A stretch of DNA of 33,550 nt, from positions 1-33,550 of the forward strand of contig JAHDDD010000001.1 in NCBI GenBank assembly GCA_020629535.1, given 5' to 3'. This document shows, piece after piece, positions 24,477 to 32,893 of the stretch. The translations under genes were made by a program, and so were the position numbers. Source of the stretch: Saprospiraceae bacterium. Lineage in GTDB: Bacteria > Bacteroidota > Bacteroidia > Chitinophagales > Saprospiraceae. How positions within the stretch are numbered: position 1 is the first letter of the stretch; each line of letters starts with the position of its first letter. The notes beneath the pieces are model-generated. The model searched no databases and was not told the origin of the DNA. It was given only the letters and a program-made list of their open reading frames with translations.

Positions 24477-25874
24477 ATGGAACAGGCGGGAAACAAAAAT
24501 AGCAACACGAATTTTCAGGATATAAGAAATTACTTTTCTCAATTTCTTGACGACCTCATTGACCTTCGAAAAGGCGTCGATAAAAAGGGCACCATCCAAG
24601 AAATAAAGGAGAAAAAATCCATGAACGGAGCCAATGCCTGGATGCTGCTATGTTCGATCGTTATTGCTTCTATTGGTCTTGATGTCGATTCCCCAGCAGT
24701 CATTATTGGAGCTATGTTGATTTCTCCATTGATGTCTCCCATTTTGGGAATGGGCTTGGCTGTTGGTATCAATGATATGGAAACGCTCAAGAAAGCGGGT
24801 ACACATTTCGCGGCAGCGATGTTCATTGCCATCTTAACAGCAACCATATATTTTTGGCTTTCACCATTCGATGAAATTACCTCAGAATTGAACGCCAGAA
24901 CCACTCCGACTTTTTTGGATGTGTTTATAGCCTTCTTTGGTGGAATGGCAGGTATTATCTCAATTGCCCGTAAGGACATAAGTACGACCTTGCCAGGTGT
25001 GGCCATTGCCACTGCGTTGATGCCTCCATTGTGCACAGTCGGTTATGGTATAGCCAATGCAAATTGGGGAGTTGCTTCTTCAGCATTTTATTTGTTTTTT
25101 CTCAACACCTTTTTTGTTTCTATGGCAACATTTGTCATTGTGAGGTATCTAAGATTTCCTTACCGTCAATTTTTAAACAAAAAAGAAAAGAGAAGAAATG
25201 GAATTATCATGTTTTGCTTTGCAGTCATGGTTACAATCCCGAGTTTGTTTATTTTCAAAACGGTTTACGAAGATTATAGAAACAAAGGCATTCTAAAAGA
25301 TTATTTAGAATATAAATTGGGCGAAGATTATGATTATGTTGATGACAAAGTGTTGACCCGATTAGACGATGGTCGTTTGAAGTTAATGCTGAAGGTATAC
25401 AACAATGACATCATCAATCCAGATCTCACAGCTCAATGCGAAGAAGAATTAGAAGAGAGAGGCTTGAAAAATCTCGATCTGGTCATTCTGACTACATCCG
25501 AAATCAAGTTGGAAGACATGGACCAAATGAGGGCCAAAGTCGGAAGCATTGAAAAGATCGCACAAGAACTTGAAGCAACCAAAATCGAATCTGCCGTGAG
25601 AAGTAAAGAAATTGATTCTTTGCGGAGTTTGAAAACGAAAGGACTCTCTGACACGCTCAACTTCGCGGCCTTTTCAGAGGACCTTAAAATATTTTACCCG
25701 GAGATTAAAAATGTAAGCTATTCGACAGGATACATACAAAACTTCTCTCAATTGAAACCAATTCACCATTTAGTTATTGATTGGTATAAGAAACCGGGAG
25801 CAGAATCGAAACAAAAAATCAACGACTATTTCAATTCTAAAATATCTGGTGAAGGAACGATCATCCATCAATAA
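24477..25874 (+). CDS. DUF389 family membrane protein
   Basis: NAWMLLCSIVIASIGLDVDSPAVIIGAMLISPLMSPILGMGLAVGIND, GVAIATALMPPLCTVGYG are characteristic DUF389 segments. Confidence 0.92.
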   Translation: MEQAGNKNSNTNFQDIRNYFSQFLDDLIDLRKGVDKKGTIQEIKEKKSMNGANAWMLLCSIVIASIGLDVDSPAVIIGAMLISPLMSPILGMGLAVGINDMETLKKAGTHFAAAMFIAILTATIYFWLSPFDEITSELNARTTPTFLDVFIAFFGGMAGIISIARKDISTTLPGVAIATALMPPLCTVGYGIANANWGVASSAFYLFFLNTFFVSMATFVIVRYLRFPYRQFLNKKEKRRNGIIMFCFAVMVTIPSLFIFKTVYEDYRNKGILKDYLEYKLGEDYDYVDDKVLTRLDDGRLKLMLKVYNNDIINPDLTAQCEEELEERGLKNLDLVILTTSEIKLEDMDQMRAKVGSIEKIAQELEATKIESAVRSKEIDSLRSLKTKGLSDTLNFAAFSEDLKIFYPEIKNVSYSTGYIQNFSQLKPIHHLVIDWYKKPGAESKQKINDYFNSKISGEGTIIHQ

Positions 25875-26004: not shown

Positions 26005-26280
26005 ATGAAAACCGTGAAAGGTCAGAAGCCTGGCATTGACGCAGTGCGTGATTTGATTTTTGGAGAACACATGAAGGATTACGAAATCCGGTTTGCCAAC
26101 TTGGAAAACGAATTCAAAGCTAAGATCCATAATATGGAAAAAAAGCTGAAGGATCTCGAAAAAGCCTATAAACAAGTAAACAATAAGTTATCCATCAGTC
26201 AAGATGGCAAAATGGACAAATCTCATTTGGCATTACTCTTCAAAGAACTTTCAGAAAGTGTAAGCGAGAAGGTCAAGTAA
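26005..26280 (+). CDS. Small coiled-coil protein, first gene of GTPase cassette
   Basis: 91 aa; FANLENEFKAKIHNMEKKLKDLEKAYKQVNNKL heptad-like; next ATG is at 26282, so coupled. Confidence 0.7.
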   Translation: MKTVKGQKPGIDAVRDLIFGEHMKDYEIRFANLENEFKAKIHNMEKKLKDLEKAYKQVNNKLSISQDGKMDKSHLALLFKELSESVSEKVK

Positions 26281-26281
26281 G

Positions 26282-27058
26282 ATGCGCGGAATTACACCTA
26301 TTGACGAATTAAAATCATTGTTGCTTCAAGACTATAGGCAACAAACAGAACGTGACTTTGAAAAATTGCGGGTCAAGGTTCTTGCTTCCATTGAAAAACT
26401 GGAGAAAGAAATCTATGAACCTGAAAGACTTGCGGTTCACATCAGTAAAAGCAAATCACAACTTTTAGATATTCTGGCTCCTGAAATCGGAAAGCTGATT
26501 AAGAATTATCTGGCTTTAGAGATTGAAAAGATTCAGAAAAGGATCAGCGACACAACAGACAAATTTTCATATAACAATGTAAAATCAAGATTCAAAGCAT
26601 TGTTTGGTCTTGAAAGTAAAGAACGCATTGATTTGCTTGGATTCCCTGAGATAATAGATATACTCATGATTGACAAAGACAGTGGATTACTACTGGGCAA
26701 ATTTAGTACAGAAGAAAAAATCGATACAGACATTGTAGCAGGTATGTTCAATGCCATTAAATCATTTGCTGATACAGCTTTTGAAAATGAAGGCAATGAG
26801 TTGGATCTCATTCACTACAACGACTACAAGATCAAACTCCATGTTTTTGGCAGTATTTACTATGCCACCATCTTCACTGGAAGATACTCTCCTGAATTTC
26901 AAGATATTCTCAATACTGACATCAACAACTTCACTGACAAAATCTCAAAAGAATTGATCAATCAACAAAATAAAGAGCAGATCACTTCAAAGATGAGTCA
27001 ATTAATGAACAAAGAATTTACACACACATGCACGAGGTTAGAAAGAAGATTATTTTAA
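26282..27058 (+). CDS. Protein with N-terminal helical region and longin/roadblock-like domain
   Basis: IIDILMIDKDSGLLLGKFSTEEKIDTDIVAGMFNAIKSFADTAFENEGNELDLIHYNDYKIKLHVFGSIYYATIFTGRY follows the beta-beta-alpha-beta-beta pattern of longin/roadblock domains associated with small GTPases. Confidence 0.7.
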   Translation: MRGITPIDELKSLLLQDYRQQTERDFEKLRVKVLASIEKLEKEIYEPERLAVHISKSKSQLLDILAPEIGKLIKNYLALEIEKIQKRISDTTDKFSYNNVKSRFKALFGLESKERIDLLGFPEIIDILMIDKDSGLLLGKFSTEEKIDTDIVAGMFNAIKSFADTAFENEGNELDLIHYNDYKIKLHVFGSIYYATIFTGRYSPEFQDILNTDINNFTDKISKELINQQNKEQITSKMSQLMNKEFTHTCTRLERRLF

Positions 27059-27525
27059 TTGGTTCCGTTGGAGTAGGAAAAACTTCTTTGATTAGAAGGT
27101 TTGTCCATCAGGAATTTACTGATGAGTATCACAGTACAATTGGGGTTAGAGTGGATAAGAAAACCATCACTCTTGATGACACCAAAGTACATTTGATGAT
27201 CTGGGATTTGGCAGGAGAGATATTGCAAAACAAAGCATATCAGGCATACCTCAAAGGCTCTTCTGGAATCATTGGAATTTTTGATGTAACTCGACCAGCA
27301 TCGTACCAGTTAATCAATGAAAGTTTACAAAATGTAAAAGGTAGTCAAGAATTATTGTCGATCATGGTCGGTAATAAAATTGATCTGTTAGATGAAACGA
27401 CAGACATTCATGGCTATGATTGCGAATATTTTACCAGTGCGAAAACAGGTGAAAATGTTGAAGAAATGTTTAATCTGATCGCTCAAAAACTTGTCAAGAA
27501 AGATGAAAAGTTCAAACGCATTTAG
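27028..27525 (+). CDS. Rab/Ras-like small GTPase
   Basis: G1 GSVGVGKTSLIRRF, switch I STIGVRVDKK, G3 WDLAGE, G4 GNKIDL, G5 TSAKTGENVEEMF. Confidence 0.93.
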   Translation: MHEVRKKIILIGSVGVGKTSLIRRFVHQEFTDEYHSTIGVRVDKKTITLDDTKVHLMIWDLAGEILQNKAYQAYLKGSSGIIGIFDVTRPASYQLINESLQNVKGSQELLSIMVGNKIDLLDETTDIHGYDCEYFTSAKTGENVEEMFNLIAQKLVKKDEKFKRI

Positions 27526-28549
27526 ATTCATATTTGACAATGATGGGATCATCTATTTTGCAGAAGCTCCATTTTACAATCCGGCTTCTGAAAAGAAGAT
27601 TGATGAATACTTCCCGATTTTTTCTGATCAAACGACGTATGACACGTGGGTGAATAAACCCATACATCCATATGAGTTTGAAATAAATGACAGGAATTAT
27701 TTTGTAGACATAAACCTGGACCACATAAAGAAAAATGGACAAAGATATTATGATCTTGTGCTAGTGGATAAGTCAAATCATTACCTGAAGTTTCAAGCTG
27801 AAAGAACAGAAAAAAACAACTATAAGATTTCCAATGAGAGGATGTTGGAAATGAATCATAGACTAAAATCTAAGATTGAACAGCTTGATGAAATATTGCA
27901 ATATGTGGTTGGCAATGAGGTAAAGTCCCCTATTGGAAGTATACGAAGCACACTTCAAGTACTTGACGATTCAAAAAATCTGAATGCAAGTCAGACCCAA
28001 CTTATAAAAATATCAATCGAAGAGCTCTCAAGAATCGAGAATATTATCAGTGCTGTTTACGAATTGCAAATGTTTTCAAACTCAAAATCATTTGAGCAGA
28101 CGTACTATTGTTCATTTAATGAAATTCTCGAAGACACAAAAGAGACTTTGATTTCATCCGTTGACTTTGAAATTGCCTTTGACATTAATGATCAAAATCA
28201 ATATTTCGTCAACAAATTCCACTTCACGAAGATCTTACAAAGTTTAATAAAATACCTCGCATCATTTCCCCTGAAATACGTTCATGAAGTAATCATAAAG
28301 AACCTAAAGACTGAGGATCGAACTTGCGGACTATTGATTGAATCCAAAGCGGATTACTTAAGCAGCAACCTCAACACTTCCGACAGTATTAAAAGTTTGA
28401 AAAGTAAAGAACAAGATTTCAATCTGATGATTGCGAAAAAATTATCAAAATTATACGGCGGTACCGTTAGTGTAAATGATGATAATCCTCTTGCAACTTC
28501 TATTAAATTGGACTTCAAAAATTTACTTGTCAAAAAGTCAATCAGTTAA
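27503..28549 (+). CDS. Degenerate histidine-kinase-like protein (PAS-like N-terminus, HisKA-like region without His)
   Basis: QYVVGNEVKSPIGSIRSTLQVLDDSKNLNASQTQLIKISIEELSRIENII aligns with HisKA (HExxxPL) but has Asn at the His position. ATG at 27503 preferred over TTG at 27491. Confidence 0.75.
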   Translation: MKSSNAFRFIFDNDGIIYFAEAPFYNPASEKKIDEYFPIFSDQTTYDTWVNKPIHPYEFEINDRNYFVDINLDHIKKNGQRYYDLVLVDKSNHYLKFQAERTEKNNYKISNERMLEMNHRLKSKIEQLDEILQYVVGNEVKSPIGSIRSTLQVLDDSKNLNASQTQLIKISIEELSRIENIISAVYELQMFSNSKSFEQTYYCSFNEILEDTKETLISSVDFEIAFDINDQNQYFVNKFHFTKILQSLIKYLASFPLKYVHEVIIKNLKTEDRTCGLLIESKADYLSSNLNTSDSIKSLKSKEQDFNLMIAKKLSKLYGGTVSVNDDNPLATSIKLDFKNLLVKKSIS

Positions 28550-28675: not shown

Positions 28676-29383
28676 TTAAGTTGTCGCATCCAAATCTAGA
28701 AAATCTTCGCTTTCATATATGGCTGGTTCGCGTTTTGATTGCTTAAAAACAATTCTGAGATTCCAGACGAAGAGAATAAGAGCTACAACCAACCAGATAT
28801 ACATCCACACATCTGCTGGGAGCACCTTCATTATTTCAGCATATTTCGCAAGATCGGAACTTGGACCCACATTGAAATCTTGAATGATGTAAAGGATACA
28901 TGCCAAACCGAGAAACATCAAAACTTCTCTTCCAAAATTCGTCCTTAAAGCAATAAAAAGTAGGAAAAGAGAAAAAGCTATAAGGAAGCCAGAAGAGAAC
29001 ATGGAGCTAAACCAAAACACTGATGAGAACATCATTGATACTGCAAGAATGAGCAACATGGGATTCACCATTCTCTTAAATCGAGCCCCAATGAGAAAGA
29101 GGAGATTTCCAAAAATCGCACTACCGAGATAGCCTCCCATTAGAATAATTGGTGCATTTCCACCAATGGTTCTTGTGAGACCACTTCCATCAGAGTTAAT
29201 CATAATATCTTCCACATGTCCACCTGTGATCAATGCCCCGAAAGCATGACCAAATTCATGGAGATAGGTTACCAATAAAATGACGGGATACAAAATCTTA
29301 TATCCCCATTCTCCACCAAAATATCTTAGGCCAAAATAAATAGCCAAAATCAGGATCATCCTGATGAGGATGTTAGAGCGCAT
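28676..29383 (-). CDS. M50B-like membrane peptidase
   Basis: HEFGHAFGALITGG (HExxH) in a multi-TM protein. Confidence 0.85.
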   Translation of the reverse strand: MRSNILIRMILILAIYFGLRYFGGEWGYKILYPVILLVTYLHEFGHAFGALITGGHVEDIMINSDGSGLTRTIGGNAPIILMGGYLGSAIFGNLLFLIGARFKRMVNPMLLILAVSMMFSSVFWFSSMFSSGFLIAFSLFLLFIALRTNFGREVLMFLGLACILYIIQDFNVGPSSDLAKYAEIMKVLPADVWMYIWLVVALILFVWNLRIVFKQSKREPAIYESEDFLDLDATT

Positions 29384-32395: not shown

Positions 32396-32893
32396 ATGAA
32401 AATTCAATTATTCCTTTTAACATTTATTCTTTCGGTGGCTTCTGGCTATGCTCAGGAGAATAATGGTAGCAAAGCAGTTACTAGTGTGTACCACAATCTT
32501 AACAATATCACATTGGTCAACTTTGATGGTACACGATCTACAATCATGAAGAACGGAAATTCAGCGACACTCATAAACGCTGATGGTTCTCATTCCACCA
32601 TTAACTGCTTTGGTGATTCTTCCTCAAACATTGTCGCCATTGATGATACTCATTCCTCTGTTCGCCATAACGGCAACTCTTCAACAGTCATGAATGCAGA
32701 TGGCACACAATTCATCGTGCATCATAAAAGAACTTCGTCTTCTTGTTCAAAGGAAGGCGACATACATGTTATCACACATTTTTTTGGCAATAAAAAAGAG
32801 AGACATCTCATTGATCAAATTGATGTTTTGATTCATCAGAATTGGCTCACCAAAATGAAAATGGAAAAAGCACTAGTTCAGTTGGGTAAGTAG
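32396..32893 (+). CDS. Secreted protein with ~19-20-aa tandem repeats
   Basis: Signal peptide MKIQLFLLTFILSVASGYAQ, then repeats LVNFDGTRSTIMKNGNSAT / LINADGSHSTINCFGDSSSN / IVAIDDTHSSVRHNGNSST / VMNADGTQFIVHHKRTSSS. Confidence 0.75.
   Translation: MKIQLFLLTFILSVASGYAQENNGSKAVTSVYHNLNNITLVNFDGTRSTIMKNGNSATLINADGSHSTINCFGDSSSNIVAIDDTHSSVRHNGNSSTVMNADGTQFIVHHKRTSSSCSKEGDIHVITHFFGNKKERHLIDQIDVLIHQNWLTKMKMEKALVQLGK

Follow-up and report, generated by a model that had tools for sequence, protein, structure and literature searches.

Which regulatory system is encoded by four closely packed genes in a Saprospiraceae bacterium, and how could the small GTPase among them be switched and read out? A preliminary description of the stretch analysed here (33,550 nt, hereafter the window, from an assembly of 4.09 Mb that is 78% complete) had proposed a cassette of a coiled-coil protein, a longin/roadblock-type protein, a GTPase and a pseudo-histidine kinase, arranged on the logic of the actinobacterial conservons and possibly acting as a membrane- or polarity-associated switch. 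We find no new kind of cassette here: this operon type was already described in 2014, and by its gene content and motifs the cassette fits a variant of the Group 1 Rup system, not a typical member.

Gene order and distribution of the cassette

The four open reading frames, all on the + strand at 26005-28549, encode proteins of 91, 258, 165 and 348 aa (Table 1). They are as tightly packed as first described: ORF1 and ORF2 are separated by 1 nt, ORF2 and ORF3 overlap by 31 nt and ORF3 and ORF4 by 23 nt, and these two overlaps suggest translational coupling of ORF2 with ORF3 and of ORF3 with ORF4. The start of ORF4 was taken as the ATG at 27503, and an alternative TTG at 27491 is possible.

Table 1. 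Positions of the cassette genes, their predicted domains and selected residues in the window.
Feature	Position	Strand	Basis or remark
Gene 1: small helical coiled-coil-like protein, 91 aa	26005..26280	+	Homologue just 5' of gene 2 in 103/107 loci
Gene 2: longin-domain protein, 258 aa	26282..27058	+	AlphaFold2, Foldseek; no family model above curated cut-off
Gene 2 N-terminal helical region, residues 1-119	26282..26638	+	AlphaFold2 block pLDDT 52-75, low to medium confidence
Gene 2 longin/roadblock domain, residues 121-257	26642..27052	+	AlphaFold2 block pLDDT 70-95
Gene 3: Rab/Ras-type small GTPase (Rup type), 165 aa, P0003	27028..27525	+	Pfam Ras 5.3e-32
G1/P-loop GSVGVGKT	27061..27084	+	Val14 at Ras Gly12 position
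Glu64 codon, Ras Gln61 position in G3 (WDLAGE)	27217..27219	+	Glu in 115/122 relatives
Gene 4: PAS-like domain, long helix and pseudo-histidine-kinase, 348 aa, P0004	27503..28549	+	Weak HisKA match, AlphaFold2
Gene 4 PAS-like domain, residues 1-89	27503..27769	+	AlphaFold2; kept in most cassettes
Gene 4 signalling helix, residues 91-135 (45 residues)	27773..27907	+	Arg101-Thr102 where family has Gln-Gln
Asn138 codon, H-box phospho-acceptor position (GNEVKSPI)	27914..27916	+	Asn replaces His
Degenerate DHp/HATPase fold, about residues 143-340	27929..28522	+	N and G boxes not recognisable

The cassette put forward in the preliminary description recurs as a unit across genomes. Among 107 distinct loci found via gene 2, genes 1-2-3 are contiguous and in the same order in 100, and 77 have the complete set of four genes, counts that are conditional on gene 2, since it served as the search query, and in which several of the loci without the full order are contig ends. 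The median intergenic gaps in these 107 cassettes are 21, 9 and 6.5 nt. A gene 2 search of 100 relatives led to 28 genomes, nearly all of which have the four genes in fixed order, and when the gene 2 alignment was run against 84,980 species genomes, 512 encoding loci were retrieved, the best 80 of which keep the same order. The four-gene arrangement is thus far beyond chance. When genome contigs were searched for relatives with the GTPase alone, no confirmed matches were obtained; gene 2 and its alignment worked. Within the family, the cassette occurs in 107 of 398 genomes and is represented in 44 of 112 genera; across the phylum, it occurs in 14 of 396 genomes. Its distribution is patchy, because only two of the six genomes of the window's own genus have it.

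Additional fixed neighbours of the cassette were considered and rejected. Some of the loci share an outer-membrane-type protein and a lipoyl synthase encoded downstream, along with divergently oriented genes upstream. These are absent from the window and are therefore read as what looks like shared chromosomal context. Directly upstream of the cassette in the window, 24477-25874 (+) encodes a membrane protein of the DUF389 type (Pfam 1.4e-43) that is extended by a long additional C-terminal region and has homologues in three of the five other genomes of the genus, two of these three being genomes without the cassette. Convergent with the cassette, 28676-29383 (-) encodes a membrane protein with an HEFGHA motif that looks like an M50-type peptidase. 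A predicted secreted protein of 165 aa, encoded at 32396-32893 (+), carries imperfect repeats of the type NGNSSTVMNADGT and is possibly a small beta-repeat surface protein.

The GTPase and its proposed longin-type partner

Gene 3 carries the complete small-GTPase motif set that had been read from the sequence at the outset: G1 to G5 are GSVGVGKTS, TIGV, WDLAGE, GNKIDL and TSAK, and its best-matching sequences in the PDB are those of Rabs (e.g. Ypt6, 2.6e-24). It is the sole GTPase of its kind detected in its own, 78%-complete genome. At the position of Ras Gly12 (window 27067-27069), occupied here by Val14, 103 of 122 relatives have Phe, a residue that would be expected to hinder the arginine finger of a classical RasGAP. 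At the position of Ras Gln61, Gln was seen in none of the relatives, and the preceding G3 Asp (D60) is kept in 121 of 122, the remaining one being a gap. Because an increase in intrinsic GTPase activity has been reported for Ras Q61E (PMC2987813, PMC10515638), the conserved Glu may be catalytic, and hydrolysis would probably proceed via this residue. Five of the 11 GTPase positions that set the clade of the window apart lie, as checked by eye, in the P-loop or switches, a clustering that is not clearly above the expectation from conservation alone and that we discarded.

For gene 2, an AlphaFold2 model built with 53 homologues (mean confidence 75, moderate) gives residues 121-257 the topology strand-strand-helix-strand-strand-strand-helix-helix, which is the longin order. 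In a Foldseek comparison with the PDB, the top matches were all longin/roadblock proteins (probability 1.00, with modest E values of 3e-4 to 1.5e-3), the matches comprising AP-2 sigma, LAMTOR, MglB, TRAPP Bet5/Trs23, Mon1-Ccz1, BLOC-3, Fuzzy-Inturned, VAMP7 and Sec22b. Independently of this, the Pfam models Fuz_longin_1 and Intu_longin_1 gave sub-threshold matches at the longin region in several gene 2 homologues, the best Fuz_longin_1 score being 19.5 bits against a cut-off of 26.1. Searches of gene 2 itself in Pfam/NCBIfam and among PDB sequences returned nothing above cut-off, longin models included, and Robl_LC7 found no match in ORF2 or elsewhere in the 78% of the genome that is represented. 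Since no family model exceeds its cut-off, we limit the claim to the fold: on the model, gene 2 looks like a longin-fold protein, which is not membership in a named longin family. To this extent the longin/roadblock assignment of ORF2 in the preliminary description is borne out.

What this domain could do for the GTPase is constrained by its alignment, in which no Arg, Asn or Gln is invariant. It is therefore unlikely that gene 2 supplies a catalytic finger directly, and an allosteric role of the longin domain as a GAP or a GEF is more plausible. Homologues of gene 2 in other classes of the phylum are of about 600 aa and carry an OmpA domain at the C-terminus, which a membrane helix joins to the longin domain, a combination that suggests an envelope input in those relatives. 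Gene 2 of the window has neither part, and none of the four proteins of the window showed a transmembrane segment, so that the suggested membrane-associated switch finds its counterpart in the OmpA-bearing relatives only. A distant gene 2-like ORF of 373 aa (L058, G016:C215; E 2e-5) has no adjoining GTPase. Gene 1 has a conserved N-terminal motif with a family pattern of roughly [IV]-[RK]-x-[IL]-[IL]-[FM]-G, and its coiled coil was assigned from composition and weak coiled-coil Pfam matches; the protein may serve as a helical adaptor of the longin platform or of the GTPase.

Relation to known GTPase systems

Group 1 Rup cassettes, reported from several phyla, join a Ras-type GTPase without the G3 Gln to a cytoplasmic coiled-coil protein, a third component whose conserved domain had no Pfam model and often, not always, occurs with OmpA, and a signalling protein (a kinase or a cyclic-di-GMP enzyme) whose conserved N-terminal domain holds an invariant Gln (Wuichet & Sogaard-Andersen 2014, PMC4316618). 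The window has the same four neighbouring genes, with G1-G5 including the G3 Asp and lacking the G3 Gln, an adjoining coiled-coil gene (gene 1), a conserved domain in gene 2 and the N-terminal domain of gene 4. By contrast, its gene 2 is without a membrane helix or OmpA, its kinase is without the His and both Gln of gene 4 are changed, and it is on account of these three departures that we call the cassette a variant. The coiled-coil protein, which had been taken for an addition, is a standard part of such cassettes.

As of 2014, Rup GTPases were without experimental study and were said not to pair with MglB-like proteins (PMC4316618). The longin assignment is absent from that paper, and neither the longin fold of the gene 2 partner nor the loss of catalytic residues from the kinase seems to have been remarked on before. 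The literature we searched contained no later study of the Rup system or of longin domains in Rup cassettes; as subscription papers were mostly outside this search, the absence is no proof of novelty.

With the MglA/MglB system the window shares a small GTPase beside a longin/roadblock-fold partner. However, the GTPase is Rab-like with both Asp and Glu in G3 whereas MglA lacks the G3 Asp, and gene 2 has the longin order of elements and extra N-terminal helices; WDLAGE in G3 and the lack of a Robl_LC7 partner led us to reject membership. Like the Streptomyces conservon (CvnA-D), the window encodes a kinase-like protein, a roadblock-type protein and a GTPase in one operon, but the GTPase is of the Rab type here and of the MglA type there, and gene 4 differs from the conservon kinase in being soluble, with a PAS-like N-terminus and no catalytic His. 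Conservon membership was rejected because no gene matches DUF742 (CvnC) and the C-terminus of P0004 reads LLVKKSIS, not LPxR. The earlier proposal of a conservon-like cassette of the Bacteroidota gives way to the match with a published cassette from several phyla. Finally, the eukaryotic and Asgard platforms TRAPP, Mon1-Ccz1, BLOC-3 and Ragulator likewise combine a longin/roadblock fold with a Rab/Rag-type GTPase and appear among the fold matches. The window differs from these in being a bacterial operon with a single longin gene, a helical N-terminus and a GTPase that has no prenylation signal and is linked to a two-component-type protein, and the modelled likeness would be one of fold, not demonstrated common descent.

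Gene 4 and the proposed read-out of the switch

AlphaFold2 gives gene 4 a PAS-like domain, then a 45-residue helix and then a kinase fold, for which the HisKA match is weak. The features of an active histidine kinase are all absent, with Asn138 at the place of the H-box His and neither an N box nor a G box, and the label pseudo-histidine kinase was well chosen. Across 122 cassettes, gene 4 is kinase-like without the H-box His in 43, consists of the PAS-like part alone in 39 and has the H-box His in 8; another 6 cassettes stop at a contig end at gene 4, and the remaining 26, a group that includes other-class sigma-54 activators, other kinases and apparent absences, have no recognised PAS-type fourth gene. 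An HMM of the gene 4 N-terminus detects the PAS-like part in both long and short versions. Mapped onto a tree built from genes 2 and 3, the output class of gene 4 (defined by regular expressions and a length cut-off) requires at least 23 changes of state. Within the window clade, in which L204-L207 were placed by sequence likeness outside the tree, the H-box His is present in L032, L037 and L207 and absent in the window, L031, L033, L204, L205 and L206; on the basis of this mixed occurrence, kinase chemistry was probably lost repeatedly in the clade.

Because the PAS-like part persists while the output module changes, the PAS-like domain and helix of gene 4 are most likely the effector. This role cannot be universal, since some cassettes lack a recognisable gene 4. 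At ten loci (L069, L074, L079, L089, L105, L107, L108, L110, L127 and L134) the GTPase is followed by no recognised fourth gene, and the next gene encodes an outer-membrane-type protein of ~270 aa that also follows the cassette elsewhere (31 loci in total). At three loci of another class (L157, L158 and L159), the gene 3' of the GTPase encodes a protein of 584-594 aa, which in L157 is a PAS-domain-containing sigma-54 activator; its N-terminal part has a similar pattern (DVSER...QQSNE) that lies below HMM significance.

The persistence of the PAS-like part bears on a reading in which the longin domain of gene 2 is an MglB-style GAP, a dimer reshaping the switches, with gene 4 as a signalling protein that lies downstream but has nothing to do with the switch. 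Structures of MglB rank among the best fold matches of gene 2, roadblock/longin dimers function as GEFs or GAPs (PMC10933270), and although the longin alignment offers no directly acting invariant residue, MglB-type action needs none. However, the retention of the PAS-like part beside the GTPase despite the changes in output argues that gene 4 belongs to the machine, and we consider the reading as a whole rather unlikely.

The 2014 study proposed that an N-terminal Gln of the signalling protein substitutes in trans for the missing G3 Gln (PMC4316618), in which case the N-terminal domain of gene 4 would be the GAP. Outside the window clade, two positions of gene 4 are indeed near-invariant Gln: the first strand has it in 74 of 81 cases and the helix in 78 of 81, and the paper's Gln may be either. 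In the window clade, by contrast, the helix Gln is replaced by Thr or Ser in 9/9 members, and the eight that can be aligned at the strand position have all lost the Gln there (T102 and F7, respectively, in the window), while the GTPase keeps its Glu. Judged by these residues, the trans-Gln idea in its simple form cannot apply to the window cassette, unless the role of the Gln has passed to Arg101 or to some other residue; an Arg directly precedes the Thr/Ser in five of the nine clade members. We therefore regard a GAP supplying Gln in trans as an unlikely account. That the cassette is a decaying remnant whose GTPase is no longer a switch, as the dead kinase with its lost H, N and G boxes, the missing membrane part and the occurrence in only two of six genomes of the genus might indicate, is highly improbable: each of the four genes has an open frame, the overlaps between stops and starts have been retained, the GTPase has all its motifs, and cassettes with a dead kinase or with none occur widely in the family.

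The reading that we prefer, and hold to be likely, is that of a soluble, kinase-dead member of Group 1 Rup: a Rab-like switch under the control of a longin platform, with a PAS-helix effector for the switch to engage. Gene content and order, the folds, the residue losses and the turnover of the output are computed results, whereas we infer the protein contacts, the GEF or GAP direction, dimerisation and output. Gene 2 would form the platform, probably as a dimer held by its N-terminal helices, bind the GTPase and control its nucleotide cycle as MglB, TRAPP or Mon1-Ccz1 do. In the GTP-bound state, gene 3 would engage the PAS-like domain and the long helix of gene 4, which would relay the signal to an output that in relatives may be a histidine kinase, a kinase-receiver hybrid or, in another class, a sigma-54 activator. 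In the window, where the kinase module is without chemistry, this module most likely acts by binding, as a scaffold or as a partner of another kinase. More tentatively, and as less likely than not, Rab-like GTPases of bacteria would have a dedicated longin regulator from the same operon, a parallel to the longin-based regulators of eukaryotic Rabs, and the switch of this clade would combine a catalytic Glu in cis with a kinase-dead PAS-helix effector and operate without phosphorylation.

The loss of both candidate Gln in one clade makes catalysis by a Gln in trans directly testable, and the PAS-helix part is indicated as the real effector surface by the repeated disappearance of kinase chemistry alongside a GTPase-longin core that stays constant. 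If gene 2 is a longin platform, then the bacterial GTPases closest to Rab, Ras, Rho and Ran also have a regulator of the longin/roadblock fold, which, if true, bears on the age of the GTPase-longin partnership and for which this operon offers a place for testing.
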